64,000 bases of DNA from NCBI GenBank assembly GCA_038049695.1, contig CP142455.1, positions 34,881,501-34,945,500 of the forward strand, written 5' to 3'. The position numbers and the translations under genes were made by a program. The number at the start of each line of letters is the position of its first letter. The stretch's first letter is position 1. Below, piece by piece: positions 19,311 through 55,439 of the stretch. The notes under the pieces are model-generated. The model was not told the origin of the DNA and ran no database searches. It saw nothing but the letters and a program-made list of their open reading frames with translations. The stretch is from Cinnamomum chago (Eukaryota > Streptophyta > Magnoliopsida > Laurales > Lauraceae).

Positions 19311-19320
19311 GTTTTCAAAA

Positions 19321-27683: not shown

Positions 27684-29795
27684 AGCAACACGTGGAGAGT
27701 TGTGCTCCAAAGAAAGTAGACACACCACTCATGACTCACGGGAGCTTTTGAGCTCGCGGGAGTGGCCACCTACGGATGTATGCAATTACAAACTCGTCCT
27801 AAAAGTGAGGTTCACCTTTCTAGGATCGATCTTGATTCAGGGGGAAAAAGGAAAAAAGAAGAAGTTACGTGCCTACTGATTTGATTGAAAACCCGAGATC
27901 TGTGCCTCGGTGCCCGTGGTATTGCCACGTGGCGGGTTGGGAACTGTGCCCCGGTTGCTTAATTTAAAATGATGGTGGGAACTGTGCCCCAGTGGTCTGA
28001 ATCAGAAGTCGATCTTTCGATTAGCTAAGTCACCATTAGAATTTCATTTGCTCTTGCAATAGAGTTTATTTCAAATGGTCATATATAACGTCTTTTAACT
28101 TTCATCCACAGTTGAACGCTCAAGGCATAGTTAAAACTAACTAGTAATAATGGAGATCTTGAAGGCAATCACAAACATAGTTCAAGTAATGGTGCGAGGT
28201 ACATGTGAGAATGAGATTCTTTTTTTTTTTTTTTTGAAAAGAGATTTTTATTTTGAAACTCCGGTATGCATCGAAAAAGCTAAATCAATGGAAAATGTTC
28301 ACCGGAATAACCGTCACTCTCTAGGGATCTTGGTCTTCACCCAAGCTTGGATGAGAACCTGAGATAGATTCGATCATCATTTTGTGCTTATCATGGAGAG
28401 TTTTGAGTTATGTGGATTCCATTCTCCAACGTCAAGATTTGAGTCGGCAAACACCGCAATTCGTGATAACACGGTATTATGGTTGCCGTACCAATTATAA
28501 TCACTTAAGGGAGGCCTACGGCGACTCAATTTCCAGACATGAGGTAAAATCATGAAGATCCATAGTTAGGTATACTTACCTCAAGAGCTTTTCATAAATC
28601 CGACGATGGGGCTCATTACCGCTTTCTTTCGTCGTCCATTTGCAGAAGTTCGTGTCATTCATCTCCATCAGTGTGCTCGAAGGTCTTCCACCTTTGGTGT
28701 TTTCGATTTCTCTTTGGGAACCTCTATTGAACAAACACTAGAAGATTCTACATTTTTTGTCATTAGTATTCAGTAACAGCATCTTGCAAAAATATTACTT
28801 CAATTTTATCAATGGAGACAACACGAGGTGTGATGCACGATGATGGATGTATGCGTGATGGGACTAATGTTGTGCATGTGATGGGACCTTATGTGATGGG
28901 ACAATATTTGGTTTAACAAGGTGCGCCGTGTCTTTGTGTGTGCCTCTCTTAACTTCCTTTCTCTCTCTCTCCATTTTTTTTTTGTTTTTATTATTATATT
29001 TTTTATTTATTTTTGTTGTTGGTTTTTTTTTTTACATTATGATTATGATTATTATTTTTATCAATGATCATCATCAATTCTTGTTCGGGTTCAACTTTTC
29101 AAAGTTCTAGGACAATTTGGCTCAAAGAGGCACTTGGTTTTCTAAGGTGATGGATAGGCACCACAGGGGTGGTGCCCAAGCTGTTTGGACTTTGGTTCAA
29201 GGACTATGAAAGAAGACAGCTTGGGCGCCCAGGGGATGGCGCCTAGGTGGAGTTGCATAGACAGAATCCGTCTCGAAGTAGAATGCTGAATTTGGAAGAC
29301 AAGTCATCTAAACGTTTGAGGAGTGGCACCCGAGATGCAGTCCTAGTCCGTCTTAGAGTGGAGTTTTTTACTTCAAGAAAGCAGGTTGCACTTTGAGTTG
29401 GTTTCGAAGTAGAATTCCGATTTCAGGATAACAAGTGATCTGGGCGCCCAAGGAGTGGTGCCCAGACTGCATTTTGAGTTGGTCTCAAGGTAGAACTCCA
29501 AATTCTGGGAAGCATGTGACCTAGGTGCCAAAGGGGTGGTGCCCAGACTGAATTTTGAGTTAGTCTCGGAGTAGAATTTGTATACAGCGTAACGCACTAG
29601 GAATCCTTGTCCGAATGAAGGCTGGATTTCTAGAAAATAGGTGTTCTGGGCGCCCAGGGTGTGGTGCCCATGTGGGACTGCATATTTGGCACTTAGAGTC
29701 CCTGTCAAAGAGAAGCCCCAAATTCTAGGAGAAACAGGTGACCTGGGCGCCCAATTGCAGTTTGGGTCTTTTTAAAGTCCTCATGAGGTTCGAAC
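27684..29795. other. Tat internal region next to the 3' LTR, mostly non-coding
   Basis: No supported gene on either strand. It includes a short repeat GGGAACTGTGCCCC (near 27948 and 27980), long T runs near 28220 and 29020, and six more dyad motifs between 29150 and 29760, so the motif is not restricted to the LTR. Confidence 0.6.
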
Positions 29796-29802
29796 TCTCA
29801 TC

Positions 29803-29810
29803 TATATAAG
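29803..29810 (+). promoter_or_regulatory. Candidate TATA box of the antisense transcript
   Basis: TATATAAG is followed about 85 bp later by a splice-donor-like CAA|GTAAGC (29894), with a plausible capped leader between. The corresponding acceptor candidate is CTACAG at 31084, just before the ATG at 31101. This would give a leader intron of about 1.2 kb. The inference rests on motif spacing only. Confidence 0.45.
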
Positions 29811-30404
29811 TGAATCAAGGCTACGGATTTCCCACAACTCCTGCTCTTCCAGACTTCGAATCTCAGAACTTTCAAGCTCTTCTTTGCTCCCAAGTAAGCT
29901 TCCTCTCCACCCTTCTTTCTTTTGGGATGAATGGCACGTCTCATGTATGTATCTCTAATCGTCTGAATAGTTTCGTTGATCAACTTGGTATATAATTTCA
30001 GATTGAAGCATCTCTCTCTTTTTTTTCTTTCAATTACTCTTATTCTAATATTCAATTTGCTTTTATTTTCTTAGATTTATATGGCTGGTCATTCTTTTTA
30101 TCTTCGTGATCATGTTTTTGCCTTTTTGTTGCTTTTTTTTGTGTTTGGTGATTTTTTGTTTGATATTTCAGAATTATGTTCAGTTTGTTGGTTCTTTTGA
30201 CTTGTAGTTATTGTCACACACGTGCACGATCTTCGATTTGAATTTGAAACTAGTCTTATGCTCTTGTGTTAATGTTGGCTTTTGTCTTGGTGTGACGATG
30301 CTTTGTCTCACGTTTTCTTTATTTACTTTGTCAAGAATGTTTTATGTTATAGGCAAATCCCTCATGGTTAGAATTGGGGTGTCCTAATTGAAAAAGGATC
30401 AGCA

Positions 30405-30975: not shown

Positions 30976-31100
30976 TGATTTTTTTTATGTCGTCTTTGGG
31001 ACCCTTCCAATTCTTGGAGTCTAAGCTTTTTGACTTGCTTTCACTATGTGAGAGATTTTTAAAGCTTTGTATGTGTATCTACAGGTCTTGTTCCATTTCA

Positions 31101-31892
31101 ATGGCTGGTGCTCCAGTATCCTCGTTTGTGGTTGATGGTGTCGAGGGCCCTTCCGCCTGCAAGCCTTATTCGCCAGGGGACGAATATTGGTCTCCTGGGG
31201 CTGAAAAGATGGGATATTACGGCTCTGAAGAACGGGTGGAATTCTATGTTGAACATGAATCTTCCCTTCCTGCTACCTATGATTGTGTATTTCAATTTGA
31301 AGAAATGATGGACAATCACATTGTGGACATTAGGCGCAGCAGATATGATTTATTGGTTATGAAGTACAAAGGCATCTGTGGGCTGTATGGTGACTTGTGT
31401 ATTGTGGGCAGGACCGCTCTGAATAGGTTGAATGGTTATGATGGGCTTCTAGAGGATCTACCGGCTTTCCTCAGCAGCATGCTCCAATTTCTTTTATGGA
31501 GCATGTTGGATGTCAGGGGAATGTTTGAGGTATGGAAGGCTACAAAGGCTGCCAATGTACGGGCTCCTATTATTGATTTTAATACCTTACATAGGCGGAT
31601 GGATCAATTGGAGCTCATGGCGATGTCTTGCCCCCACGAAGCTGAGTCGTCCGTTCCTCGGCGCTACAAAAAGTACTTCGAGATGCAAAATACTAGCCTT
31701 TCCGCACTTATCTACCCGGTGTACACTACTTATCTAAATGACTTTGAGCGTATTGGGGAGATTTGTGGTGCTTTCCTAGGTCCTCCAGATAATTTTAAAG
31801 AAGCGCAAAGGCAACTTGAAGCTTACATCGTCGGAATGGAAGCACGGATGGCTCGCTTCCATGTCTTTGACGGGATGGTCCATCCACTCTAG
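31101..31892 (+). CDS. Unknown 263-residue protein, antisense extra ORF of the Tat element
   Basis: An uninterrupted ORF starts at the ATG 17 bp after an acceptor-like CTACAG; the frame is open further upstream to 30891, but that part looks like leader intron. The protein starts MAGAPVSSFVVDGVEG. It contains an acidic/aromatic N-terminal half (EYWSPGAEKMGYYGSEERVE), a helical middle (RRSRYDLLVMKYKGICGLYG) and a C-terminal region with LHRRMDQLELMAMSCPHEAE and YKKYFEMQNTSLSALIYPVY. No signal peptide, clear membrane segment or known motif was recognised. Its being open in a decayed neighbourhood is notable. It lies on the strand opposite to the element's own genes. Function unknown; it could be an accessory protein or N-terminal partner of the PMD gene downstream. 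Confidence 0.6.
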   Translation: MAGAPVSSFVVDGVEGPSACKPYSPGDEYWSPGAEKMGYYGSEERVEFYVEHESSLPATYDCVFQFEEMMDNHIVDIRRSRYDLLVMKYKGICGLYGDLCIVGRTALNRLNGYDGLLEDLPAFLSSMLQFLLWSMLDVRGMFEVWKATKAANVRAPIIDFNTLHRRMDQLELMAMSCPHEAESSVPRRYKKYFEMQNTSLSALIYPVYTTYLNDFERIGEICGAFLGPPDNFKEAQRQLEAYIVGMEARMARFHVFDGMVHPL

Positions 31893-32971
31893 CTGATTCT
31901 TTGGGAAATTCTACTTTAGGCTAGGTTTTCCCTTTAAATAAATGTGGGGTTAGGTCATTAGGACCATCTTAGTTAATTATAGGCTCCATCTAGGGTATTG
32001 GGGCAAAGGTTGTGACCTCTGTTTTAGTCAATGTTTAAGATTTGGTTGATTCGGTTTATTGCTATAGTTATTGTTTGAAGACTCTGATTGGAGTTTAATA
32101 GAAGTTGATTTAGATTTTTACTCTTTCCCTTTCCTTTTTTTCTTTTTTTTTTATGTATAGATTATTATGTGGTAATGATTTTTTATCATGATATTAGTGA
32201 TGACGAGTTATGGAATTTGATGATGAATTATGATGGTTAGCTATTTGTCATTGATGTTTGATTATGATGGTGGTAATCATGATTATGATTTTATGTTTGT
32301 ACCCTTTTTTTTATATTAGATGTGTGTGCATGTTAATTGACATATAATGATGTGGGATACATGAGTAAATGCATGGAATTGGATCTTGGAATGATGCATG
32401 AACAATTAATGCATGATGCATATATGATGAGTCCATGGTTTATTTTAAAGCTGAATCAACTGACCTTTGTACATCGTTTGTGCTGCTTTTCCTTGTAGGT
32501 TGAAATGGACCACCGCTGTGCTGCTGATAATTGTGAATCTTGTCTAGTGCCGAGGTTGGCAGTCAAGCTAAGTCAAATCTTGCTAAGGCTGGATCACAAT
32601 TACTAATAGAGATTGATTTTTTTTTAACATGAGTTGTGAGTGGATTATGTTTCAACTTCATCCCCACTGATGTTTGAATAAATGTCAAGTTTGATCTTTT
32701 TTCATCTTTTTATTATTATTATTATTTTTAGTTAGATTAGATTTCAGTTCAGTTTTTTTTTTTTTTTAGACCTCCTGGGCGAGAGCAATAGGCCCACGTT
32801 TTGGGTGGGTCTTGTTCAAGGGGGCCTCACCATGTGATGGTGCTGGGCCATCACGCGCCCAGCCTTGGGCGCTAGGTCAAAACGGCTGGGGTCTTTTCCC
32901 CTTATTCATTTTTTCATTCTCTCTTTCCCTTTCTTCTTTCTTTCGTTTCTTTCTTTCTGTTCTTGCTTCAG
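31893..32971. other. AT-rich spacer between antisense ORF and exon-intron array
   Basis: The sequence is rich in ATGATG/GATTATGAT repeats (32160-32430) and T runs, with no supported ORF. Near 32770-32880 there is a GC-rich patch with one more GGCGC dyad variant (GCGCCCAGCCTTGGGCGC). Confidence 0.55.
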
Positions 32972-33484
32972 GTGAGGCGCAGGGGAGAGTGAGCAGGGAG
33001 AGCTGAGTGGAGAAAGAGGAGAAGCAGCAACACGTGTGGCTGCCGTCGGGTGAGTGGGTCTTAACCCCTCTTCTATTCTCTGTTTTCTCTTGTTCCCCCT
33101 TTTTTGTGACTGTTGTGGCCATTTTAGGTGGAAGCCGAGTGAGGAGGAGGAAACGGAGGAAGAGAGAGAGCCAGGTAGGGGGTTTCACTCCCTTCTTGTT
33201 TCATTCTTCATTCTCTCTTTCTTTCTCTCTTTTTTTTTTTTGGCTAACCTGTTGTTGTCACTTACAGGTGGGGGCCGAGTAGGCTGAGGGAGTGAGAACA
33301 GAGGAGAAGAGGGAGGAGAGTGAGGAGCCCGCCTCCCAGCTGTGGCCCAGGTATGTAGTTTCATTCTTCATTGTCTCTTTTCTGTCCATTTTTTTTTGAC
33401 TGACCTACTGTTGCTGTTTCAGGCAGAGGCTGAGTGAAGACGCAGAAAAAGTAGAGAAGGGTGAGGTAGGAGAGAGAAAATTAG
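32972..33484 (+). repeat. Tandem array of four exon-intron modules
   Basis: Four purine-rich blocks are each preceded by a pyrimidine tract ending CAG or TAG and each followed by a GT donor: 32972-33049 (GTGAGT follows), 33128-33174 (GTAGGG), 33268-33350 (GTATGT), 33423-33484 (GTACGT). Blocks start GTGGAAGCCGAGTGAG, GTGGGGGCCGAGTAGG, GCAGAGGCTGAGTGAA, so they are copies of one another. Introns are 72-93 bp with shared TTTCATTCTTCATTCTCTC and CTGTTGTTGTCAC-type segments. Period is 140-155 bp. They are likely duplicated leader exons of the antisense gene. Frames through the introns are artefacts. Confidence 0.7.
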
Positions 33485-33588
33485 GTACGTGGTTCCAATC
33501 CTTTCCTGTTTCATTTCTTCTCTCTCTTTTCCCTTTTTCTTTTGGTTTTGGACGGTGGTTGCAACGTGGGGTTTTGGGGCCCGATTTT

Positions 33589-36331
33589 TGTCACGCCCCC
33601 AAAAGTGAAACCGGGGTTATGCGTGAGATTAGGGCCAATTTAAAACTTTTCCAATGATAATAACATATCACTTGCCCTAATCGTGTCCCATCTAGATCGA
33701 AGACCGCTGTGAGGTATAAACATTTCCTCGAATATATCAAACGATAGCGGAAGCTTCATAAAACAAGAGGTATCTTATAGATGTATAGTTTAAGAGCAAT
33801 ATACTAAGTACCAAAGTTAAGGTTAAAGTTTAAGACTATAACAAAATATTAATTACAAGTAAAAAGGCCAAACTAAAACTAGGCCTAAACAAAAGTACAA
33901 AGAAACCAAAAGATGAAGCTAAGAGGATAATCGTGTAGCTCTCGCGTACGGGGGTCATCACGGCTATACAATGCCGTCCGTACTGTACTCTAAGAAGTCA
34001 TCAGGCTGATCTGCCTGAACTTCTTCTGTCATTTCCTCCGCCTCGGGGTAGAACTGCTCGGTACCTATGCACCAAGAGTAGCATCATCAACACAACGGAT
34101 GGCAAAACAATAGATATAGAAATCACATAGATATGCAGTACTAAAGAGAGTAAACGATAAACATGATTGTAAGAGATGCATAGCACTCTGATCGTAAGAG
34201 ATGCATTGCATTCAAATCATATACAAACTATCAAAGTAGGCGATCCACATAAGCCAATATATATCATCAAATGGGATAAAAACCCAATATCCAATATCCA
34301 AACAACCCGTAGCTCAAGTAGCTCTGGCTCCGTGAGCTCTGGCTCTATCTTGCTTAGAGGAACAAACAACTCGAGGAACAAACAACTCTCAGCTCAAGTA
34401 GTGCTGGCTCCGTGAGCTCTGGCTCTATCTCGCTTTGAGGATCAAACAACCCGAGGATAGTAACAGTCCTCTCACAGATGGTGCCCCAACTGTGTTGAAC
34501 GTTAACAGCTGAGTGGTGCCTGACACAAAGAATCCTAAAACATCGGTGAAGGGCTAGGCTCTTGTGCGAACAAGATTCAATACCAATAGAGAACTACTTT
34601 ATTCCAAATCAAATCGAACTCCAAACAAATACCAATAGTAGTCCTCTTTAAGCCTGACAATCAAACTCCCTAGCCACAACGCTTCAAACGAATATCGAAA
34701 TAAACGAAACAACAAAGGGGATCCTAAGTCCATCATCTAAGTTCTCAAAAGGATCCTCTAATAAAGTAAAGCAAATAGAACTAAAGAACATGCTCATCAC
34801 ATGTAGAAGATAGTACCCGAAGGTACCATTCGGAATCAAAGCGAATAAACAATCCAATCCTAAGTAAAGTGTCAACCCTGAAGCATCGCACAACATATTC
34901 AGTCAACGAAGGGGTTAGGGCTCGCGATACTCGGACGAACAATCTTCGTGCATAGATTTAAAGAAGAGTATCCCGTTGTCCCGTACCATTCAAGATTGAA
35001 CTAGGTTAGCTTCCGATGCAACCGGATCGGCAGTGACGAATGTCGGCTCAAGACATCCTCACAATAAGTCAAATGAGTCCTCAAATGGGTATCCAAAGGT
35101 CCACCAAAGTCCACCTTAAAACAGGGTAAAAATCCCTTCAAAAAGGAAAATTCACAAAATCTGCATAAGGCTCGGTCGACCCATGCCCCTGTTGTCCCGG
35201 TCGACCGGCACCTGCATGCCGGTCGACCGGCTAGCCTGCGGAAACTGGGCAGAGCCCCTGTTCTGGGCTGAAATGGGACTTTTCCCATTTCTCACTTCTG
35301 GGACCGGATAAGCAGTATATGTACAATGAAAAACAACTAAATTACAACTTGTAAAACTACTAATCAAGCCATTAATCACTAAATCCATTCCATTCAATCT
35401 ATAAACCATTTTATCATGTTTTCAATCTATTAATGTATCAATTGAGCCAAAACCATCTAAGACATGATTGAAGCATACAAATCAAGGTAAACAAACATAT
35501 CAATCATTAATATAGCTATTGACTTGCCTTGGTGATGTGATTGACTCTATTCAAGAAGAAAAAGGAAGGAGGAAGACACTTTAAAAGCTCCAAATGGGAT
35601 TAACACTCCTCCAAACCCAACAAGCTCCTACAAATGCATGCCAAGGGTCAAGGTGGGTCTTCCTAAACCACTTCTAACCAAAGAAGAAGAGGATGACATG
35701 GTTTCCAAGCTTTGGAAGCTTACCTTTAAGTGGGTTGTGGGTGAAACACTTAGAAAAGTGTATGGTTGGACTCTTGAAGGCTTGAGGAAGAGAGTTGGTA
35801 GCTTGGTTTCCTTCGCCGGAGCTCTGTGCTCGTCAACGGAGGAGAAAGAGATGAAGGAAGGAAGAGAAGAAGTAAGTCGGCTGCTATGCTGTGTTGTAGT
35901 TGAGTTGGGATAAATGGGATTGAAGGGAATGAGATAAGTATTAATGGGTTGGTAGGATACTTAAGTAAGTGGGTCTTGGGCTTGGGCTTTGGTTGATGGG
36001 TCAAGTTCCGGGTCGGCCTACGTATACAATTAATGGATTTCGGGCCTCTTCGACGCGTCGAATCAAAACGCGACCGAAGGCTAAAGTTCATGAAACGACG
36101 AAACCTACCCAATACACCCAAGCTCACCAAAACTCATAATCTCATGTAATCCCTAAAACCTTACCCAATTAGTAAAAATACTCTCTATCCTACCCAAACG
36201 CACTCCGAATCGTGCGAAACTTCGCACACGAGCTTCGGCGTTAAACCCAACTATTTAGACTCTAAACTAGCTTACTAACTAATCAAACAATTAATTATAA
36301 TTAATAGGCCATTAGGGGTCGGGATGTTACA
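33589..36331 (-). mobile_element. Solo LTR, Del/Tekay-like gypsy
   Basis: Read on the minus strand it begins TGTAACATCCCGACCCCTAA and ends TTGGGGGCGTGACA. Flanks are ATTTT (33584-33588) and GTTTT (36332-36336), a near-duplication with one mismatch. Start and end resemble the LTR at 49490-53673, and such ends are common in Del/Tekay chromoviruses. Length 2.74 kb. A cluster of perfect palindromes CCGGTCGACCGG lies at 35170-35231. Short frames inside (for example near 35640-35913) are not supported as genes. Confidence 0.85.
35170..35231. repeat. GGTCGACC palindrome cluster
   Basis: Three copies of GGTCGACC occur in 60 bp, two of them within longer perfect palindromes (35197-35208 and 35218-35231). 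Confidence 0.85.
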
Positions 36332-37600
36332 GTTTTGGCCAAAAGTAGCCATGGGCATGGTTGATTTTGGTGAGGGAAGAAGCGGGGAGTTGTCTCAGCC
36401 GTGAGGTTGGCAATTGCAGCCCCCTGATTCAGATTTGAAGAAAGATTACAGAACGGGGGGTCCTATGATAAAATCAGTTTGGGTGGAGAATGTAAATGGC
36501 TGTGAGTCGTTGGGATTGATGGGATGATGAGAAGTGGGGTTTGGTGTGGTTCATGGAGGTTAATGGCCATAATGGAGGTGGTTCAGTTCGTTGAACAATT
36601 ACATTAGCCTTGGAAGACAACATGGCGAATATGATTTTGGATTCTTAGCGCAGATCTTAACCACTGAAGGATTGGGCATATTTTTATTTTTCCATTCTTC
36701 ATTCAGGGATTTGTCCAAGTTTGTGGAGCATTTATTTTGTTTTGTTTCTGATAATACCATGATGTCTTTTATGCTCGCTTTTATAGTTGCGAATAAGTTG
36801 CAAATCTCCTGCTCTCTCTCTCTTTTTATTTATTTTTGTTTGTGTGTTTTTATTCTCTTTATTATTATTTCTTTTTGGTCGTGCTTGTATTTCTCATATG
36901 AGGAAACAAGCCGTGTGTTGCTTGATGAATTGCAATGGGGTTAAATGGAACGAAGTATGGACAAAGTGGAATGGTGGTGACTAGAGTATAGTTGTCATGA
37001 TCGTGATGGGACACGGGTTATGTACTGTTTTCAGATTCAGTCATTTGTTCTCGTTTCTCTGTCTCTCTTTTTTTTTGTGTTTTATTTTATTTTTATTATG
37101 ATATCTTGTAGCTTAGTGTGTTTTACTTTCTGTTGATCCATTCTTGTTTCATTTACGTTCTGTGAACCATGTTCTGTGTTGCTCTCTTTTGTTTTCATTC
37201 TTTTTTTTTTTTTCAAAGTGTGGTTGTGGGATGGAGTGTGATTTGGCCCAATGTGTGTAGTGATGATATGATGATGAAGCAATTATGGGGTGAGAAATTA
37301 GAATTGAGTGGGAGAGTTGGGTTGGATTGAATGTGATTCGTTTTGTTGTAGGCCTGTAGGATGTGTCTTGACGAGGTTGGCCTGGGTGAATGTGATTCGT
37401 TTTGTTTTAATATTTAGGTTGGATCCATAGCCATGATCTTTGGCTTCCCCTCCTTTTACCACTTAACTAATGAAGTTCACCACCTCTAAATCAGAAACAT
37501 TAGTAACCATCTCGGACTGATCTGTCTTTTGGGTTTACATGGACTGATGTTATGTTTTCATGCTCAATCTCTAATTTTGGCATTAAGTACAGGTTTATAG
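36332..37600 (+). other. Upstream (leader) region of the antisense PMD gene
   Basis: No supported coding sequence. It contains pyrimidine-rich runs and ends with an acceptor-like AAGTACAG eight bases before the ATG at 37601, as for the ORF at 31101. It probably holds leader introns. Confidence 0.45.
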
Positions 37601-38039
37601 ATGGCTATGACTAGGAGGGCTACTAAGCGTGCTTCTACGCTGATGGATGTTCTGGAAGGGGTTGGGGTAGATCCGGTCACTATTCCCCCGAGAAAGAAAC
37701 AAAAGGGGGAAGATAAATTGGAGAAGAAGCCTCATCTTGGAGATGAGATAAGAGCTGGGCCGGTAAAACTCGGTTGTCTTTATAAATCTCATACTTTGTT
37801 GGCTTCCGTTATCACTGATATTCTTTCCTCTGATGTTTGCGTTGTAGCATGTCCCTTTTGCTCGGGCTAGGGTCAGCTGGTTACAGATGAGGGACTGGTG
37901 GGCTGAGCTCCCTGATCGCTTAACAGATCGGGTGCGAGCGATGGGGTTCGGTGACTTTATGCCTATCGTTTCCTTCCGCACCGATCGCGCCCTCATTTGT
38001 GCTGTCTCTGAGAGATGGAGAGATGAGACGCACACTTTT

Positions 38040-39816
38040 TGTTAGGGATTTTGTAGATTGCAATTTGATGGATGCATAATCATTCAAGCATCATTTGATT
38101 TACACACATATGCATTGATTTATAAAATCTTGTAATCTTGATTTATTCATGCATTGCTTTTAAGATTTGTAAAAGTATCAATTTATGCATGATTTGCTTT
38201 TAAAACTTGGATGCATTTGTTTTTGAAAAGAGTTCTATCAAATCAAGCAAGCCATTGGTTTTATAATTTCGAATCTTTTTAGGCTTTTTGTGTTTCATGT
38301 TTTTTTAAACCACTTAGTTTGATTTAAAACATGTTTCCAAGCTTGATTTAATGGCCAAAAAATTCCCACTTGAAAAGACTTTGAAATATGTAAAAAATAT
38401 GCAATTTTGGGAATTTTGGTCCCGGGCCAGAAACGCTGTGTACCAGGTCGACCCGGGTAAGGGCCAGGTCGACCCGGTACACTACCGTTGGCCATTTTTC
38501 AAACGGTCACTTTTTTTACCGTTGTGAAGGCCAGGTCGACCCGGGAGTCATGGGGTCGACCGGGGACTAGCCGTTGGGCAATTTTTGAGTATAAAAAGTA
38601 GTTCTTTCCTTTGTCAAAGTAGGAGATTTTTAAGCCTTCTTTGAGGCATTTGGAGACAAGACAAAGGGGATGAACTAAGAGAGACCAAAGAATCTTTTGG
38701 AGAGCTAAAGCTTGGATTAATGAAGTTAAATCTCTAAGTAAGCTCTACCTCTCTTAATCATAAGTTATGTGCTTTGTTTAAATTATTGGTAAATGATTTT
38801 TAGCATGATAACTATGATGTGTTGAATCCATTCTTCTCTTAATCTTTGATCTAATTAAGATTGGATTCTTCACCTTGGTTTCAATCCAAGTTGTTTTAAA
38901 ACCTTTCTTAATCATGGTTAGCCAAAGTCTTTGATTTCCTTTAAAGCATGATTCTTTGTCTTGGTTGAAACCTAATTTGTTGTTTTCATTCATTTAAACT
39001 TTAGTTAAATTTGTTTAGTTTTGAAAATAGCATTGCACATGCATCACATGTTCTAAGTTAGTCATTTTCATACAACTTGTGAGTCTTTGATTTTCATGTC
39101 TTTAACAAGTTGTTTCTCATACATGTGATTTGCATTAAACTTCAATCAATCTTTTATGAGCCTTAAACTTTGAATTGCTTTAAGCAATATATTAATTGAG
39201 CTTTGTTTTTAACTTGATTGAAGTTATCACACACACACATCATGAGCATACATCTTTGCATTCATATAGTGTTTGTGTGAGTTGATTTACACTTTCAAAT
39301 TAGCCTATTTAAGAGGCAATTTCTTTGAGCTTAAAATTGTATCTCTTAGAGTGATCTTTTCTGAAGACAACTTCTTAGAGAAATCTTTTTCTTGTAAAGG
39401 TTATTGCTTAGCCTAAGAAAAGCATTGTGTAAAGGTTATTGCTTAGCCTAAGAAAAGCATCCTGTAAAGGTTATTGCTTAGCCTAGAAAAGCATATTGAG
39501 AGGTTGTTGTTTAGCTTAGAAAAACAACATTGTAAGGGTTATTGCTTAGCCTATTGAAAAGCATAAATAGTGGAAATCCGGTGGGGTGATTGGATCACAA
39601 GCCGGTAGTGGACGTAGGCATTGAGGCCGAACCACTATAAACCTTTGTGTTGTGGTGTTTGCTTGTGGTGATTGTTTATATTAGCTTCCGCATCTTGTTT
39701 GATTAATCATCACTTGTGACTAGTTTATGTTAAGAAGTTAAAATTTGTTTAAATTGGTCACAATTGTAGCTCACCCTATTCACCCCCCCTCTAGGGTTAG
39801 GACCCCAGGACTTTCA
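38040..39816 (+). repeat. 5' LTR of the SIRE-like element
   Basis: Begins TGTTAGGGATTTTGTAGATT and ends GGACCCCAGGACTTTCA. It includes a cluster of GGTCGACC motifs (38440-38570) and a tandem of about 33-bp units TAAAGGTTATTGCTTAGCCT (39410-39565). The ORF-like stretches in it recur identically in the other LTR and are not genes. Confidence 0.95.
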
Positions 39817-39818
39817 AT

Positions 39819-39830
39819 TGGTATCAGAGC
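39819..39830 (+). promoter_or_regulatory. Primer binding site (initiator tRNA-Met)
   Basis: TGGTATCAGAGC lies two bases after the LTR end. It is complementary to the 3' end of plant initiator methionine tRNA and is the usual priming site of copia elements. Confidence 0.93.
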
Positions 39831-43325: not shown

Positions 43326-43700
43326 CAAAGGGGGAGAGAGCATTCAAGTTCTCAAAAGGGTGAAGAGAATGTCCAAGCTTCCTAAGGAGAGAGTTTGTAT
43401 GATCTTCTACAGGGGGAGAGAATGCATATCTTGCCAAAGGGAGAGAGAGGCATGGTCAAAGGGGGAGAGCAAATAGAAGAAAGAAAGCTTGGAGCTAAAG
43501 AAGATGCTTGGCTAAAGAAAGAAAGATTGAAGAATGATCAAGCACCAAGCATCAAGAAGATTGAAGAAAAAGTCCAAGAGCCCAAGCTAAGAAAAGAAGC
43601 ATCCAAGAGATTTCAAGAGTTGTCCAGCTTAGGGGGAGCCAAAGACTTCGTGTGTTAATTCAATGATGAGTAAGTTGCCATCAAATTGCAAAGGGGGAGA
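43326..43700 (+). promoter_or_regulatory. Multiple polypurine tracts upstream of the 3' LTR
   Basis: CAAAGGGGGAGAG-type tracts occur near 43326, 43411, 43435, 43457 and 43630, and the one abutting the LTR is at 43689-43700. Only the last touches the LTR start. Multiple such tracts are a known trait of SIRE-type elements. A short Lys/Glu-rich frame (43395-43658) is a product of the purine bias. Confidence 0.8.
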
Positions 43701-43701
43701 T

Positions 43702-45481
43702 TGTTAGGAATTTTGTAGATTGCAATTTGATGGATGCATAATCATTCAAGCATCATTTGATTTACACACATATGCATTGATTTATAAAATCTTGAAATCT
43801 TGATTTATTCATGCATTGCTTTTAAGATTTGTAAAAGTATCAATTTATGCATGATTTGCTTTTAAAACTTGGATGCATTTGTTTTTGAAAAGAGTTCTAT
43901 CAAATCAAGCAAGCCATTGGTTTTATAATTTCGAATCTTTTTAGGCTTTTTGTGTTTCATGTTTTTTTAAACCACTTAGTTTGATTTAAAACATGTTTCC
44001 AAGCTTGATTTAATGGCCAAAAAATTCCCACTTGAAAAGACTTTGAAATATGTAAAAAATATGCAATTTTGGGAATTTTGGTCCCGGGCCAGAAACGCTG
44101 TGTACCAGGTCGACCCGGGTAAGGGCTAGGTCGACCCGGTACACTACCGTTGGCCATTTTTCAAACGGTCACTTTTTTTTACCGTTGTGAAGGCCAGGTC
44201 GACCCGGGAGTCATGGGGTCGACCGGGGACTAGCCGTTGGGCAGTTTTTGAGTATAAAAAGTAGTTCTTTCCTTTGTCAAAGTAGGAGATTTTTAAGCCT
44301 TCTTTGAGGCATTTGGAGACAAGACAAAGGGGATGAACTAAGAGAGACCAAAGAATCTTTTGGAGAGCTAAAGCTTGGATTAATGAAGTTAAATCTCTAA
44401 GTAAGCTCTACCTCTCTTAATCATAAGTTATGTGCTTTGTTTAAATTATTGGTAAATGATTTTTAGCATGATAACTATGATGTGTTGAATCCATTCTTCT
44501 CTTAATCTTTGATCTAATTAAGATTGGATTCTTCACCTTGGTTTCAATCCAAGTTGTTTTAAAACCTTTCTTAATCATGGTTAGCCAAAGTCTTTGATTT
44601 CCTTTAAAGCATGATTCTTTGTCTTGGTTGAAACCTAATTTGTTGTTTTCATTCATTTAAACTTTAGTTAAATTTGTTTAGTTTTGAAAACAACATTGCA
44701 CATGCATCACATGTTCTAAGTTAGTCATTTCATACAACTTGTGAGTCTTTGATTTTCATGTCTTTAACAAGTTGTTTCTCTTACATGTGATTTGCATTAA
44801 ACTTCAATCAATCTTTTATGAGCCTTAAACTTTGAATTGCTTTAAGCAATATATTAATTGAGCTTTGTTTTTAACTTGATTGAAGTTATCACACACACAC
44901 ACACATCATGAGCATACATCTTTGCATTCATATAGTGTTTGTGTGAGTTGATTTACACTTTCATATTAGCCTATTTTAGAGGCAATTTCTTTGAGCTTAA
45001 AATTGTATCTCTTAGAGTGATCTTTTGTGAAGACACCTTCTTAGAGAAATCTTTTTCTTGTAAAGGTTATTGCTTAGCCTAAGAAAAGCATTGTGTAAAG
45101 GTTATTGCTTAGCGTAAGAAAAGCATCTTGTAAAGGTTATTGCTTAGCCTAGAAAAGCATATTGAGAGGTTGTTGTTTAGCCTAGAAAAATAACATTGTA
45201 AGGGTTATTGCTTAGCCTATTGAAAAGCATAAATAGTGGAAATCCGGTGGGGTGATTGGATCATAAGCCGGTAGTGGACGTAGGCATTGAGGCCGAACCA
45301 CTATAAACCTTTGTGTTGTGGTGTTTGCTTGTGGTGATTGTTTATATTAGCTTCCGTATCTTGTTTGATTAATCATCACTTGTGACTAGTTTATGTTAAG
45401 AAGTTAAAATTTGTTTAAATTGGTCACAATTGTACCTCACCCTATTCACCCCCCTCTAGGGTTAGGACCCCAGGACTTTCA
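43702..45481 (+). repeat. 3' LTR of the SIRE-like element
   Basis: Near-identical to 38040-39816, beginning TGTTAGGAATTTTG and ending CCCCAGGACTTTCA, then the CTTTT duplication. Small differences include the length of a CA run near 44892-44904. Confidence 0.95.
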
Positions 45482-48400
45482 CTTTTCATTTCCCGCCCGG
45501 GGAAATGACGATCACATTGGAGGACATCGAGCGATGTTGGGGGTTGAGCGTGACGGGCCTCCCTATTTTCTCGAGAGCGAATGATGCCAAGGCCTCCATC
45601 ACACAATTACGCCTGCATAGGATGTTTGGGGCATGCCCCCAATCTGGCGTGGGGCAGATTGATGGAGAGTGGCTGAGGGAGGCATATAGCCCACAGAGGA
45701 AGAGGATCTTAGATAGTAAGTATTCCATTATTGCCTTGGTAGCCTTGTATCCTTCAGCTTCCATTATTTCTACTAATTGTTTCTCCTTGCTTCATCTCAG
45801 AGTGGGCCAGGAATCAGGCAGACTTCTTTGCTAAGCTGAGGGCAAGGATACCGGATTTGAAAGGTTTGCCGGTCAGAGGACGCGAGGGAAGCCTAGTCCC
45901 CACAGTGGCCGGGGTTAGGGCCGATGCCGGTAACACGTTGTTCCTTTTCCCTTAAATTGATTTTGAATCCAAAATACCCATGAGACTTGCACCTTTGACT
46001 TTCACCCTTTACCGACATCATTCAAAATTCCTTTGATAGGTGAGGGCCCCTCCTCTGGACGACCTCGATCTGCAGGCGGCCCCGTCGACGATGACGTAGT
46101 AGTGGTGGATGCCATTGAGAGTGATGAGGAGGCGAGTGGGAGTGATGACGATGCGGTTGAGTCCGAGGATCCGGACTTCGATGAGTTGGAGGGTGATCTC
46201 ATCGTGTCCGATGATGGAGATGACGAGATTGATGATGGGGATAGTGAGGACGAGGGGGTGAGGCCCCATCGGGTCGTTTCTGTTCGCATTGATGAGGGGG
46301 GTGATGGAGATGTGGGTAGAGGTGATGAGGGCGATGACGTTGGACCCTCTGAGGGTAAGCACTCGATCTAGCTTCCTTAACCGATCTCTAGTGCCTTGTA
46401 TATTTCTCATCCTTGTTTCTCATGTTCTTTTCTCTTTTGTTTCAGGATATGAATGGCGGGAGGTGCCCGTTGACGGGTATACTCGCCGGAAGAGGGTAGG
46501 GATACCTTGCGAGATTTTCCAAGTCGCGAGTGAGCACCGAAACATTTGGTAACTACTTTGTTCTCCATTCTGATTTTCAAATGAATTTCTTAGGTCAATT
46601 TGTATTGTGTAGAGAAAGAACAGGGGAGGCAAGCTGAGGTTCGTTTGAGGAGACCCAGGTTTATTTTGGCACGGTTGGGTGATGAGGAGCATCTCAGGGC
46701 TTTTCTTCTATTTTTTTTGGGGAGGTGTCTCTTTGCCAATGCGACTGGCAATAGAGCATCTGGCACCCTCATCCGATTCGTACAGGACTTGGATAAGGTT
46801 GGTGACTACGCTTGGGGGGCAGCCACCCTTGTATTTCTTTTCCGTAGTCCGGATTCGAGGTGCCGTGTTCAGTCTAGATGCAAGAGCCTTCGAAGGTTCG
46901 TGCCGATCATACAGGTTAAACCTTTATTCCGAATGCTGTGACCTTCAGTAGTTTCCTTTTCTTATCACGTCTCATGCCTCAGCTTTTGTAATAACAAAAC
47001 TTTGATTTTGAGCAGGTGTGGGTATGGGAGCGCATAGTGCAGTGTCGGCCTGAGCGCTTGTCGGCGAGGTTGAGTTGCACTCCCCGGGCTTCGCAGTGGT
47101 ATCCTAACGCAAATTTGCAAGGTTTTGCCGACATTCTACCCCCTGAGATGGCCGAGCGTATTAAAGCTCTTGGGATGAGGCCGGGCGAGCAAGGTTATCG
47201 GTTCATCTTGAATGAACTGAAAAACCATGAGGTATGCTCCTTTTCTTTCCTTTTGTTTTCTATGTTGAACGTCTGCTTCTCTTTGTTCTCATCAGCTACC
47301 TATATCATGGTTTATCAGGTGATTTGGCAGCCCTACCAGGGTGGTCCGGATGATGAGATGACTGTTGTCCAGGACGGGCATGCTTTATTTGAGAGGGACA
47401 TATGGCTCCACGCTCCTCAGGTAGCAGTCAGATTGATCGTCAGCCGAGTCGCGCGCCAACTGGGATGCCATCAAGCTATCCCTGCAGAGAGGTCCATCAT
47501 GCATTGATCGTACCCGGGGTCGGGTCTAAAAATGTTCAAGCGCCGCCATCCTTGCCGAAGAGAGATAAAAAAAACTGGAGAAAGAAAGGTAGGAAGGCTA
47601 CCTTTGACGTGGATGCTAGTGCCTGGGGTGATTATGAGGCATATTGGAAGACGACTTCACACCGGTATATACTCCCGGAGTCATACTCTTGTGGGGCCTC
47701 ATATTCTATTAGTAATTGCGCAGAAGCAGTTGAGGCCTCATCATTGACCCGGGTGAGCATTGAAGTTTTATTTGCTCTAATGTTGTCTCCTTTCATCGTG
47801 ACTCACATTGTTTCTTCCTTTATTTCTCAGGAGGAGATACCAGCTGTAGCGGGGCATTGGCAATCACGTCCATCATCCGAGGGACGGGGTGAGGTGAGGT
47901 TTTTATGAAGTCCCTAATTTCGCTTATGAGCTTCATGATCTCGGAGATACATGTTCTTCCCATCCCCTAACTGTAATTCTCATGTGTAACAGGGGACATC
48001 CGGGGGCGCAGCGTCCGATGCGGAGTCCATTCTCAGGGGAGAGATACTTCGACTGTCTCACCTAGTGGAGAACAAGGTATGACTTCTTGACTAAGTGTTT
48101 GGACCAAATGGTGTTCACCTCCATAGCAATGCTAATCATTTTTGGTGTAATGGCATGGTTCATGCTTTCATAGGACGCAGAGGTCGCGCGATTGAGGGCC
48201 TCATTGTCGGCCGAGAGGGTACGAAAATTGTCAAACTTAATTGGCCGCATGCAACCTTGTTTGTATCTCCCTTACTAACAGTGCTTTGGTAATAAGACCG
48301 CCGCGGGGAAAACGAAGTGGTCATTGAAGTATTGGCGGATTCTCGCGAGGTACGGGGTCACGGGGTTAATTTTTCATCTTGAATTCATGTTCATGATCTT

Positions 48401-49128
48401 TGGTCACTATGCAGGGTGGTAGGGATCAGGACACGTCTGAGGCCATGAGGATAGCATTGGAGGGTGAGCTTCAGATACTATGAGCTGAGGTGGATCGATT
48501 GCAGGTTGGTGAGGTTTATGCTTTTACTGCGTTCCTCTTTCGTATAACAACTGATTCCTAATTGTCTGCCTTTGTGATCTTTAGGAGGAGGCTCGTAGTG
48601 AGCGTGATAGAGCGCTTGCAGAGAGAGTTGCCTTAACGGCACAGGTATGGGTCCTACTTATGTGATACTTCAATCTCAATTTTTCATTCGTTGCTGATGT
48701 GGTTTGTAATCTTGTGGTGTGTAGGTCGACGAGTTGCGTGCCAAGCTCAGGAGCTTTGAGACCTCTGCACAAGTGAGGGTCTTTTCTTCCTTTTAAATTC
48801 CATGTCTGCGACTACAAGGTTTGGTCAATGTAATATTTCTTTAAATGTTGCCTTGCAGAGCAGTACCATTGTTGCTTTCGCTCCTCCGCCTCCCAGCTTG
48901 GCCGAGGAGAAGGCCCGCCTCCATGATCAGTACACCGAGTGCATGGATCGCATGGCGCGAGGTCATGAGGAGGTGGTTGCTGATATGCGAAGGTGCCTCG
49001 ATCGATATCGCCAGAGGGCGGAAGAGAGAGGTTATGCATTTTTTGACTCGATGCGAGCTCCTTCTCAACGTGCTCCTGGTCTAGCTTCATTTGCTTCATC
49101 GGCTCGTCATAGTGGAGCTGCTCCATAG

Positions 49129-49489: not shown

Positions 49490-51019
49490 TGTGAGAACCC
49501 GACCCCTAATCTCTTGGATTAGTGTTGTTTTATTTGTGGATTAGTTCTTTTAGTGGGATTAGCATTTGTTGGATTGAGTTTGTGAGCTAGAATGGTTTTT
49601 CTTCTAGTTTTGGGCTTTTGAGTGCTTTGGTAGCTTGTGGGGCCCTTTGGGGGTTCCTTTTTCGGCTTTGCATTTTCTTGTGAGATTTTCCCAATTCGTT
49701 TCGTATTGTGTTTTTGGCCCGTTGCATTCATCTTGAGGAATCCTACAACTTTCATGTTGATTCCGTATCCATTTGTGAACCCGAAACCCGATTTCTTGGC
49801 CTCGAGGGCAAAACAGTCTTTTCACACCAAATTTGTACCCAAAACTCGATATTCTCGAAATCCGTGAAACATACACTTTTTGGAAACAAGATATTTCGAC
49901 GATCATTTCTTCCTTCTTCGTCAAATCCATCCGAGGTCCCGAATTAGATGATTTCAGCCACCCAAGTTCCTTAAGTTGTGGGACCCAAACCTCCTTGCTT
50001 ATAAGAGGAACCCATCCCCTTCCTCTTCCATTTTTCATTGTTCCAGCACAACCCTTTTGAGTCTAGGGTTTTCTTGCTTTCTCCTCTTCTTCTTGCTTCT
50101 TCATCTCCAAGCCACACCAATCTTGCACCAAACTAGAAATGGAGATCATCAATCTCTTCCTCTCCTTGCAAGCTTCATCTTGATAGCATTTTTGGAGAAA
50201 TCCATCAACATTGAGACCTTCCTTGAGCTTGTTCTTCTCATTTGAAAGTCATCCAAGTAAGTGTTCTTCTTCATCTTCTAGATTTGTAATCTTCTAGCCT
50301 TAGAGAAGCTCCACCTTGATTATTGAGAGGTTTCCTTGTCATTTCATTGTTTAACCCATTTTAGGGCTTTTTTGGGGGGGTTTTTGTAGAGATTGTGGAT
50401 CTTGAGCTTGAGAGGTGATTAGGAGCTTGTTTTGCTAGATTGGAACCCAAGGCAAGTGGATGAATGGATGGTTTTAATGTTATCAAAGTTTTATGAGAAA
50501 ATCCCAAGTTTATTTCTTGTTTTTGATCATTGGATACATGTTGCACATATGCTCCTTGTCACATATATATGGATTTCGAAATTTGCACATTAATGGTTGT
50601 TTCTATCTTGTTAATCTCTTGGAGAGGTATGCATTTCATTTGATCAAGTTTACTCATATGGTTTTATAAGGAATAGGATTGGTTTGGCTATTCATGGTTA
50701 TGTTTATGAGCTACATTGATTTGAAATTGATAATCATTTATAGAGTTGTGCTAAAACATCTTTGGTTATGGAAATGTGATCAATAGACCTTGTTTATCTA
50801 TAAATGTTGACTCAAATGAACCCTTGTCTATGATGGGAACTCCTCTCCTTGTTTGGGGATTGAATGTGAAGAAAGAGGTTGGATTTAATGATTCATTGAA
50901 GTCTTGATGGGAGTTTTATTGTAATTAGGATGTTGTTGAAGTAAGGAAAAACTCATTTGTATAAGTGTTGGAAAGGAAAAAGGAAGAGAAAGAGAGGAAC
51001 TGAACTGCCTGGAATTCAG

Positions 51020-51180
51020 TTTCTGGACAGTTCGCTCGAGCGACCATGACAGTTCGCTCGAGCGACCTGTCCAGAAAGGGATACGGGTTTTCCAGTAGCC
51101 TGGTCGCTCGAACGCATTTAAATAACCGCTCGACCGATGAGTTCGCTCGAGCGAACTCTTAGATTCGCTCGAGCGATGCA
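51020..51180. repeat. TTCGCTCGAGCGA palindrome cluster
   Basis: At least five copies of the CGCTCGA core occur in 160 bp, including the perfect 20-bp palindrome GAGTTCGCTCGAGCGAACTC at 51139-51158 and two TTCGCTCGAGCGAC units near 51030 and 51052. Confidence 0.88.
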
Positions 51181-51243
51181 GTCTGCCTAGCATGATGCGC
51201 TGGTACAGAAATTTCGGTGAGTCCAGTGGGTTTTGTGGACCTT

Positions 51244-51364
51244 GGCTCCAGACGCTCTCACATATGGTCGAGTGAGTCCAGTGGGTTTTGAGGTTTATTT
51301 TTCTTTGTGGACCTTGGCTAACCTCCTCGGACTCACTCGACCATATGTGAGAGCGTATGGAGCC
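51244..51364. repeat. 36-bp inverted repeat with 48-bp spacer
   Basis: Arm 51244-51279 (GGCTCCAGACGCTCTCACAT...) pairs with 51329-51364 (...ATGTGAGAGCGTATGGAGCC) with about one mismatch. GTGAGTCCAGTGGGTTTTG also occurs as a direct repeat near 51218 and 51272, so the left arm overlaps a local duplication. Confidence 0.85.
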
Positions 51365-52429
51365 GATGCTCGTCACGGTTGGTTCGGATGCATCGAAGTT
51401 CAATCCATTTCAATCTTGAACGGGATGGAACGACGCGATATCTTCTTTATATCTAAACATAAGTCTTGCCCTTGGTTATCGCAAATTCTATTCTTTTCGG
51501 TGACTGAATAGGTTGCTCGATGTTTCCGGATTAGTGTCATACCTAGGATGGACCGATTATAATCTTGATTCTTTTCTATTGTGATATCTAGTATTACCCA
51601 TAAGCTCATTTTAAGTTTTGAAAGTAGTAAAAGTGCATAAGGAGCCCGGAATGTCCTCAAACTCAAGGAGTACCAAGTAATTGTTATAATCGACATACGG
51701 GACCCCTATTCACTTAAATAGATCTTGAAACCGATATTTTTACCCGAAATTGTTATAGTTCATTGTTTCACCTCATTTCCCGAGATTTGCATCACATGAC
51801 TTGTTTCCCGAAAGCATTGAAGTTACACTAGTAACAGTTATTTGTCCCGAAATGTATTGCCCGATATGAAGTGACAGTGTGCCCTTGAGCACCCCCGTTT
51901 TACCCGTTTATTTATTGTACTTGATTTACTTGCATATATCCCGATTTGTTATTTGACCTATGAGTCGGCATCACTAAGCTTGGATACCTTGTCGGTTTGA
52001 TCCACCGATTTGGAAATCCCTCTCCCGTCCCGCCAGCTGCAGTTTGGATCCCGATACCCGGTTATTACCGTGGTCCCGTCCCGATACCCGGTTCGCTACC
52101 GTGGTCCCGTTCCCGTATATTTATATTGTATATATGATTAGCGTTGAGTCTCCTCACCTTGTGTGACTGAGACCAACGTCCCGTTATACTCTTGTCACTT
52201 CGGTGATAGAGGACTTAGCTTCTTGTGATTGCCATCTTGCCCGTTCCCGATTCCTTGGATACCCGACATGTTTTATATTGTTTACTCGCTTTCCGATAAA
52301 TGATTCGTTTCCTCTATGAAAGTTGTTATTTAAACAGGTGCTAATATTCTCCAATGTAAATTCAGTTATTATTATATTGTCTTCTGTTCCTTGTACCCGC
52401 ACATGTTTTAAATGGATGCCGGTTGGGCG

Positions 52430-53010
52430 AATACCCATGCTTTTACATATGTTTCAAACCATCGATGGTTTTACTAGATTTATGTGATTACACATGTTTT
52501 AAAGGAATACCCGAATTGTTAAATATCCGAGCTTGCATTATAGGACATTTGGTTTGTCAGATATCTATGTTTATACCTGTTTTTAAATGAATACCCGAAT
52601 TGTTAAATACCCATGCTTTGAAATATGTTTCAAATGACACTTGTTTTGCCAGATCACTATGTTTATACCGGTTTCAAATGAATATCCGATTTGTTAAATA
52701 TCCCTGCTTTGAGATGTTTTAAATGAACATTAGTCTTGTCAGATTTCTTTGGTTACACCTGTTTTAAACGAACACCCGGTTTGTTAAATATCCGTATTTT
52801 CACATATGTTTCAAATGGACTTTGGTTTTGCTAGACTACTATGAATGTCTGGTTTGTTGTATACTTATGTTTTTACTTAAGTTTCAAATGAACGTTGTTT
52901 TGGCCATACCGCTATATTTATACATGTTTTAGACGAACACCCGATTGTCAAAAATCTATGATTATAGATGATGTAGATGAACACATGTTTTATTAGATAT
53001 TCATGTTTTA
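52430..53010. repeat. Degenerate tandem array of about 80-110 bp units
   Basis: Six or more loose units contain CATATGTTTCAAATGA, TTTTACCAGA-like and AATACCCGAATTGTTAAATA. Units are diverged but in consistent order. Confidence 0.65.
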
Positions 53011-53673
53011 CCCATGCTTGAAATGAATACAGGTTTCCCCGAGATTCCCGACTTTACACCCGTTTAATTATATGCAGCATTCGATCGATTAGCATGATTT
53101 ATTATATGTTTTATTCTTTAGTATATTTGTTATCTTTTCATCCACCTGCCAGACCGTCGTGTCTGACCCACTACTTTTGGTACTCAGGTTCAGATTTCCT
53201 CGCCCCGAGTTGAGTGCTTTTGTTGGCTGTAGAGCCATGCTTTGCAGGTTGGTTTGTCGGCTATGTCATGTAGACATTGAGCTTGACATCGGAGCTACGT
53301 CACATTTGGGTAGTAGTTTATAGCTTTTTTTGTATGGCTTTTATTAGCCTTTTTCTTGGGATTCTTAATTAATGTACATTGATAATTGTAACTTGAACAT
53401 ATTTGGGAATGTAACATCCTGTTACTGTCAGCTCTGTAATTTATTGTGATGGTTACTCCAGTCTGATATGATTCTTGATATAATAGCTTAGTGCTAAAGG
53501 TTGAGTACGACGCGGAATCCGATGGCCACGGACTTCGGGTCGCAACGCCACAAATGCTTCCGCAAAATATTCAGAATGTGTTGTCTTCACACACGCGGAT
53601 CCTGGGAGAAGTAAAATACATTTATGCTTAATCCCATTTCCCGCCCCCGAGGTTTTGGTTCGGGGGCGTGACA

Positions 53674-54819
53674 GATCTCATATGGAAGGCCATTGGTAAT
53701 CAGAGATAGCCGGTAATGAAACCTATACAATAGATTGAATGACTACAACTTCGTTCCGGAGATGTAACATAGACCTAGGGTTCTCAGACAATGGGAGTAC
53801 CTGGGTATCTGATGCTTGTGGCCTAAGCAGTTCTATGTTTTAAGGCATTCACATTGCTAGCTATAAATGTAAAGATAGAAGTTCAAGATAACTGCATTTT
53901 TTTTAAATAGCACAACATGTGATATCATAGAAAGGTGTGAACAATAGGCATTTATAATTAAATTCATCATAAAGTATCATAACAGAGATAATTTATATAT
54001 CTCAAATTTAATCACCACCATTGTATTCTTTTCAAACCATGAGGAGTTGTGCGCAAAATTATGCATGTAAAATAAAAAAAATGCCCCAGCTTGTGGGATG
54101 TTTTGGATGTGACGGGGTTGGGTTCTCTGCAAGGTCTCGAAACAAACTTGTTAGTTTAATATTTTTAGGCCCCCTGCATAGTCTGGCTAAGGTAATATTT
54201 CCTTTCTCGGTAAAAATGTCAGGGGACCATTTTGGCACTCAAGCTTTGAGAAAAACAAGATTGAATTCATACCTTAGGAGATATGTCTTCCCTGCGTCCA
54301 ACCAAAAGTGATTAGTAGTCAAAGCATGCATGGGGTGCTTATGTGTGGGCTGGTGAGTGCTCGTGGCAATTGTGTATGTGATGAGGACCCAGATTGGGAA
54401 GCTGTGTGGGATAAAAATATATTTATATATATATATAAAAAAAATGCCCCAGCATAAGACTAGTGTTTATTTTAGCTGTGGGTGAGGGCGTAAGGGTAGA
54501 TTAGCTTCTCGATCCATAATTTCACTATGATGATAACGTGATCCCCCCTAACTTTCCTCTGGAGGTCGAGCCCTCACGGGCCCCCTTTTGTTGCTGCTTA
54601 GTCTTTTCGGCTAAACTTTGGAGAGTACTTGACTGCCTTCGGGGCTCATTCGTGAGTAATGTTCGTATGTGGGGTGGTGAGTCACCGTGCTACCTTAGTG
54701 TCGTGGCTTTCGACCACCTTCTGCTTAGTTCGCCCGATGAGTACCCATGTCACTTCAGCGAGCCTAATTCTAATAGAATTTTTTTTTTTTTGGTTTTTTG
54801 TTGGTTTTTTTTTTTTTTT
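53674..54819. other. Tat internal region, no gene recognised
   Basis: The sequence contains two AAAAATGCCCCAGC motifs (near 54075 and 54442) and an AT run (TATATATATATA near 54423). No supported ORF on either strand. Confidence 0.5.
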
Positions 54820-55250
54820 TACATGTGACTGTGCAATGCCCGGGCCCCTTAAGCTTTCTAATCAACCCATGAAACAAGCATTCAGCCAATGACTCCCAAA
54901 CCAAGTGGCTTTAGGGCACTAGGCATGTAAATACCCCTACGGGCTTACTAGCTCGAGTTAAAAAGGCTACGAACCCGGACTAGTAAAAAAAAACTTTTAT
55001 TCTTTTCAATATTTCTAACTAAATATTTTCTCGTCTCTTTTTTTTTTTTTTTTTTTGAGACATGTGACTGTGTAATGCCTAGGTCTCTTAAGCTTTCTAA
55101 TTAACCCATGTAACGAGCATTCAGCCAATGACTCCCAAACCAGGTGGCGTTAGGGCACTGGGTATATAAATACCTCTACGGGCTTACTGGCTAGGGTTAA
55201 TAAGGCTACAAACCCAAACTAGTCACGATTTATTTTTTTTGGATAAAAAA
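54820..55250. repeat. Tandem duplication, unit about 235 bp
   Basis: ACATGTGACTGTGCAATGCC at 54821 and ACATGTGACTGTGTAATGCC at 55060 begin two copies that run through TTCAGCCAATGACTCCCAAA and ACGGGCTTACTAGCT. Each copy is preceded by a long T run, probably part of the unit. Confidence 0.88.
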
Positions 55251-55439
55251 GCTTTCACGACATGGGCGATCCCACCTTCAAACCTTTACATTGGGTGACT
55301 TTAACGGTGCGAAATTTGTGTGGGGTAGACTCACCATTTTGTGTGTTTTTAAGTGTTGGTGTGTGTTTGAGTTCCAAGTTCGATCAATGTGCATCTCTTC
55401 GGTCCTCCTACGGGGTTTCTACAACTACGCTAAGGAGCA

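Follow-up and report, generated by a model that had tools for sequence, protein, structure and literature searches.

A 64,000-nt stretch of the Cinnamomum chago genome (assembly GCA_038049695.1, contig CP142455.1, positions 34,881,501 to 34,945,500; this whole stretch is hereafter called the window) contains a long terminal repeat (LTR) retrotransposon read on the minus strand. We are fairly confident that this element represents a decayed member of the Ogre-type Tat group, from a family that carries a family-wide accessory unit, antisense to the element's own genes and located between the integrase gene and the 3' LTR. This unit comprises ORF263, an open reading frame (ORF) of 263 codons, and a many-exon gene encoding a plant mobile domain (PMD) protein. 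An earlier note on the window had described a plus-strand TATA box, a 263-residue ORF, a module array and a multi-exon PMD gene in this interval, and all of these were found again:

29802..29809, plus strand: TATA box CTATATAA of the antisense unit (motif comparison among copies)
29891..29898, plus strand: leader-exon splice donor CAAGTAAG (motif comparison among copies)
31072..31084, plus strand: splice acceptor ahead of the ORF263 start (sequence, motif comparison)
31101..31892, plus strand: ORF263, open 263-codon antisense gene (open frame; no Pfam family)
31937..31942, plus strand: AATAAA-type polyadenylation signal after ORF263 (motif comparison)
32969..33490, plus strand: purine-rich exon-like cassettes (sequence reading)
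37601..37762, plus strand: PMD exon 1 (exon peptides, splice sites)
37848..38039, plus strand: PMD exon 2, first part (exon peptides, splice sites)
45482..45715, plus strand: PMD exon 2, second part (Pfam domain, exon peptides)
45801..47231, plus strand: PMD exons 3-7 with introns (exon peptides, splice sites)
47330..49128, plus strand: PMD exons 8-16 with introns, exon 12 uncertain (Pfam, exon peptides)

An antisense gene block shared across the genome

Searching the 1.06-Gb genome (14 contigs) returned at least 145 matches to ORF263, with 47 at 85% identity or more, 92 at 55-79%, 2 at 41-47% and 4 at 30-32%. PMD exon 6 lies within 20 kb of 69 of the 131 merged ORF263 loci, in every one of these 69 cases on the same strand and downstream, at a median distance of 4.05 kb (41/69 at 3.4-4.5 kb), while a position-shift control gave a mean of 0.81 and a maximum of 4 such pairings over 200 trials. 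This count took 110 of 150 PMD matches, leaving out the 40 weakest and copies without exon 6. Seen from the PMD side, ORF263 stands upstream on the same strand at 68 of 102 merged loci. Among 15 other copies that were read individually (numbered with an L), 11 carry PMD exon peptides on the ORF263 strand (L042, L043, L044, L046, L048 and L051-L056; in L051 the last exon only), and integrase lies opposite to the block in all eight other copies where it is clear (L040, L043, L044, L049, L052-L055); a weak 29% integrase match in L046, also on the opposite strand, was left out of that tally. The antisense block between integrase and 3' LTR is a family feature, and a coding gene antisense to gag-pol between pol and the 3' LTR, the hallmark of the so-called aORF-3R genes, is present in many copies. 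The earlier note's expectation that other copies would carry the block held for the 69 paired loci and for 11 of the copies read; the four that did not conform are taken up below.

The signals around ORF263 recur as well. Among 29 close copies, the strict motif CTATATAA is found in 19, CAAGTAAG in 20 and both in 18, and in all 18 the TATA-donor distance is exactly 89 nt, a spacing that spans two promoter types otherwise divergent at many bases. In L039 the distance from TATAAA to AAGTAAG is 91 nt, and seven copies (L013, L014, L017, L021, L033, L035 and L038) have unrelated sequence at this site. A strict acceptor motif precedes ORF263 in 20 and an AATAAA-type signal follows it in 25 of the 29 close copies. 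The cassettes between ORF263 and PMD are spaced ~150 nt apart with an acceptor-like start each and, judged by their letters, look like repeated small exons; similar ones follow ORF263 in L011, L012, L026 and L039, and by one pattern their number ranges from 1 to 4 among five other copies.

ORF263 matched no Pfam family in the profile search, had no match to PF04195 (the Transposase_28 of Retand) at E up to 1 and had no relatives among solved structures at E up to 1. A structural lead was dropped since the predicted helical model (mean pLDDT, the model's confidence score, 48.9) was too poor for comparison. Seven database proteins match ORF263, two of them named as avocado proteins, and one avocado gene model fuses an ORF263 relative with PMD exon 3 sequence.

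The PMD gene spans 37601-49128 and comprises ~16 exons according to exon peptides, splice sites and the Pfam domain, so that the earlier figure of about ten introns rises to ~15. A profile search of the ORFs, as the note had proposed, placed PF10536 at 45466-45831 with 50.7 bits (E=1.9e-13), above the curated cut-off of 34.9, and at 46995-47504 with 31.7 bits (E=1.2e-7), below it. The gene in the window is not intact: a nested element splits exon 2, and the coding sequence has a frameshift as well as two in-frame stops. Intron positions are common to the window, L046 and L054, while their exons are mostly only 41-70% alike. We also observed that L044, L054 and L055 have earlier and later exons but not exons 4-7, a recurrent deletion form. 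Weaker PMD matches at ~38-45% identity show recurring open frames of 255, 312 or 319 codons and perhaps represent another, intronless mobile PMD family.

Two further observations concern the arrangement of the block elsewhere. At G000:C6:533395-574421 (part of it in L044 and L045), three stop-free ORF263 copies stand on one strand 20.1 kb apart, as if LTR-internal units had been multiplied by unequal recombination. L044 and L045 are mosaic, with PMD exons and LTR at ~90% DNA identity to the window and ORF263 at ~65% protein identity, which suggests exchange of modules between subfamilies.

Selection on the two proteins and competing explanations

Between the window and L039 (69% identity), ORF263 differs at 62, 39 and 124 sites in codon positions 1, 2 and 3, respectively, with a ratio of nonsynonymous to synonymous differences (pN/pS) of 0.23 in frame versus 0.94-1.47 in four of the remaining five. 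The corresponding ratio of substitution rates (dN/dS) is 0.09, 0.12 and 0.05 for the three pairs among the window, L039 and L045, with saturated dS. For PMD exons 2, 6 and 7 it is 0.08 (window-L046) and 0.11 (L043-L046), again with saturated dS, 0.21 and 0.17 for the closer pairs window-L044 and L043-L044, and infinite for L044-L046. Both proteins are under purifying selection between subfamilies (dN/dS ~0.1 with dS saturated), a point that the earlier note had proposed to check. Among the 29 close copies, ORF263 has diverged less (mean pairwise distance 0.057) than the sequence around it (0.10-0.18), and its pooled dN/dS is 0.43. Codon variants shared between copies number 45 synonymous to 47 replacement, against a neutral expectation of 1 to 3.35, while singletons number 101 to 213. 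We read this as constraint during the element's multiplication and decay once inserted.

An unlikely but serious alternative is that selection belongs to the past or to other members only, and that the sampled copies carry both genes as passengers. The excess of replacement singletons, stops in the ORF263 of 9 of the 29 close copies, and PMD deletions and losses of reverse transcriptase (RT) in several copies are what it would lead one to expect; the shared variants, still constrained within the close family, and the 20 of 29 copies with a stop-free ORF263 speak against it. The unit might instead matter as antisense RNA and not through its proteins, either in regulation or as a source of small RNAs against the sense genome, in keeping with the transcripts pairing with genomic RNA that the accessible part of PMC7264820 discusses for such elements. 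We consider this improbable because the frame-specific codon constraint on ORF263 and the low dN/dS of PMD exons between subfamilies indicate that selection acts on protein. That a piece of a host gene, or a DNA transposon with PMD, landed by chance in this one copy is very hard to believe: PMD is indeed known from host genes and MULE transposons (PMC5418596, in the portion available) and the window gene is broken, yet pairing and orientation are identical at the 69 loci, the order relative to integrase is the same in 8/8 copies, and the genome-wide pairing count refutes a single late insertion event.

Several observations weigh against a family-wide, protein-coding antisense unit in addition to the stops just mentioned. 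Of the 131 ORF263 loci, 62 lack PMD exon 6 within 20 kb; of the 102 merged PMD loci, 33 lack ORF263 within that distance, and one has its nearest ORF263 downstream on the same strand. In four of the 15 other copies (L040, L047, L049 and L050), the part that was read yielded no PMD exon peptide; in L050 a PMD match lies 17 kb downstream, and L040 retains DNA resembling the end of the last PMD exon. Exons 4-7 are missing from L044, L054 and L055. The motif TATA[AT]A[AT] is absent from the 458-1400 nt that precede PMD exon 1 in eight of nine copies, and the ninth, L044, holds only TATATAT runs there; a promoter TATA close to PMD exon 1 was dropped as a candidate after this search. One minus frame over ORF263 has a pN/pS of 0.36 between the window and L039. 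The window-L043 pair shows no constraint on PMD, since dN/dS is 0.61 and the exons (6.1%) have diverged like the introns (5.7%), and we discarded it as evidence of selection. Finally, no spliced cDNA was recognized by eye among the database relatives, and two of these, P0001 and P0008, run through intron sequence and look genomic rather than cDNA-derived.

A possible mechanism and its relatives among known elements

In the mechanism that we propose for the antisense unit, transcription would begin at the TATA promoter close to the 3' LTR and proceed in the direction opposite to the genomic RNA, and a short leader exon would be spliced across a ~1.2-kb intron to ORF263. The second gene, PMD with its ~16 exons, lies ~4 kb downstream in the majority of linked copies and may use the ORF263 leader too, and the two proteins would act in the nucleus. 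The introns would persist because they lie on the wrong strand in the genomic RNA and are copied, not spliced out. A bolder and less probable reading is a two-gene unit with one conserved promoter, in which a leader of fixed length would be alternatively spliced to ORF263 or, via the cassettes, to PMD, an intron-rich gene kept on the non-genomic strand and possibly acting as a decoy of MAIN and MAIL1. Competition of PMD with these host silencing proteins seems the most natural role, and we regard it as rather doubtful. It is possible that the block was captured by an ancestor before amplification.

PMD in Ogre elements and antisense genes with their own promoter have already been published, and the family described here is an unusually elaborate variant. 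The following comparisons draw on the accessible portions of the cited papers. Its closest parallel is the aORF-3R of the Tat lineage, i.e., gene23 of maize Grande and its counterparts in rice RIRE2 and Retand, which likewise lie between pol and the 3' LTR antisense to gag-pol; gene23 is reported to have its own promoter and a nuclear product, and Transposase_28 (TRP28) ORFs occur in 97% of Silene Retand clusters (PMC7264820, PMC11963269). Unlike Retand with its TRP28, the window family has the unnamed ORF263 and a many-exon PMD gene, and the word "intron" occurs 0 times in the main texts of these two papers. With Ogre, the window family shares PMD, present in 57% of Ogre elements as an extra ORF, and an additional RNase H between RNase H and integrase (PMC6317226). 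Because the survey set a lower limit of 250 codons per ORF, it would overlook a gene divided into many small exons. Internal regions of Ogre measure 11-13 kb (PMC6431247), whereas the one described here is longer. PMD also occurs inside Ty3/gypsy elements of angiosperms, where PMD-A forms Gypsy-only clades, while host PMD-C proteins MAIN and MAIL1 act in silencing (PMC5418596, PMC7156037). The giant Gypsy-like planarian element Burro resembles our family in its very long internal region and accessory coding capacity, but there the accessory domains are part of a giant polyprotein or adjoin it, and the available part of PMC6431247 describes no antisense spliced unit. None of the literature titles and abstract openings listed, which for three broad queries covered 20 of 6495, 10 of 118 and 15 of 86 records, concerned an LTR retrotransposon with an antisense gene of many introns; the set leaves most subscription papers uncovered, so one may well have been described.

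The family would provide a case of a retroelement that keeps a many-intron gene over long times and a putative conserved antisense promoter that is open to direct test. It also offers a test case for whether PMD proteins of retrotransposons counteract the silencing pathway of host PMD proteins. Genes of this kind would go unnoticed in surveys restricted to uninterrupted ORFs, and database entries from Persea and Cinnamomum list fragments of them as ordinary plant proteins.

The host element, its nested insertions and surroundings

The earlier note had placed a primer site, purine tract, integrase and ORF1-like remnants on the minus strand and had taken the repeats at 19598 and 60861 as LTRs of one element; LTR-pair reading and the integrase profile bear this out. 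The element and the insertions within it are composed as follows:

19598..27665, minus strand: 3' LTR, ~5.8 kb minus the insertion at 23725-25967 (LTR-pair alignment)
27666..27682, minus strand: purine tract adjoining the 3' LTR (sequence reading)
55633..56262, minus strand: integrase remnant (Pfam rve, E=3.6e-9, core 55885-56262)
57764..60507, minus strand: ORF1-like frames (frame reading; no Pfam match among frames scanned)
60839..60857, minus strand: primer binding site, tRNA-Arg type (sequence reading)
60861..64000 in the window, running on to 66751 in L009, minus strand: 5' LTR (LTR-pair alignment)
23725..25967, minus strand: nested solo-LTR-like insertion, target site duplication AACCA, kin to the LTRs of the Copia-like insertion at 38040
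~33590..36332, minus strand: nested solo-LTR-like insertion, flanks 4/5 bases alike by eye
38040..45481, plus strand: nested Copia-like LTR element within PMD exon 2, target site duplication CTTTT
49490..53673, strand unassigned: nested LTR-type insertion, target site duplication GATCT

The copy spans 19598-66751, past the window edge, in minus-strand reading direction. Its LTRs differ by a Kimura two-parameter distance of 0.037 over 5826 sites, and the 5-base flanks GTAGT and GTCGT agree at 4/5 positions. At substitution rates of 1.3e-8 and 4e-9 per site and year, the insertion would be ~1.4 or 4.6 million years old, respectively. The primer site, three bases past the 5' LTR, reads TGGTGATCGTGATGGGACC, which we take to be the tRNA-Arg complement. 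A tRNA-Arg primer is of the Ogre type (PMC9289625), and LTRs of ~5.8-5.9 kb fall inside the Ogre range of 1.9-6.5 kb (PMC6431247, in the part available). As in Ogre, relatives L049 and L053 have an additional RNase H domain located between the RNase H and integrase; the corresponding stretch is lost in the window copy. Judged by these sequence signals, which agree with the Tat/Ogre assignment made earlier, the window copy is a degraded member of an Ogre-type Tat (Ty3/gypsy) retrotransposon family. GGGCGCC...GGGTGGTGCCCA motifs are repeated within both LTRs (21453-22612 and 62765-63924), and similar ones occur near ORF263.

Other sense genes survive in relatives, all opposite to the antisense block: gag, protease and G-patch in L044 and L045; RT, RNase H, additional RNase H and integrase in L049; and the part from RNase H onward in L053, whose slice ends at that point. 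RT is missing in four of the five copies whose protease-integrase stretch was read: in the window, L040 and L043, ORF1-like sequence directly adjoins the integrase remnant, and L044 has no RT match between protease and integrase. A family devoid of RT was considered and rejected, as L049 carries it and the loss is therefore not family-wide.

The 41-kb size that had been taken as the element's own is inflated by the four nested insertions, three of them with perfect 5-base duplications, which make up ~16.6 kb of the 47.2-kb span; subtracting them leaves ~30.5 kb, of which ~18.8 kb is internal region. The insertion at 33590-36332 is missing in L042 and, by distance, in L043 and L044, that at 38040-45481 in L043, and that at 49490-53673 in L040, L043 and L044. 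Within the nested element at 38040, an open frame of 479 codons at 39917-41356 has only a weak Pfam match and contains a zinc-knuckle-like motif.

Outside the element, a 25-nt tandem repeat array lies at 18582-19375, immediately beyond the 3' LTR, and a Copia-type RT frame (RVT_2, E=2.5e-48) stands beside an inverted repeat with arms of ~1.7 kb (584-1504 and 1906-6165).

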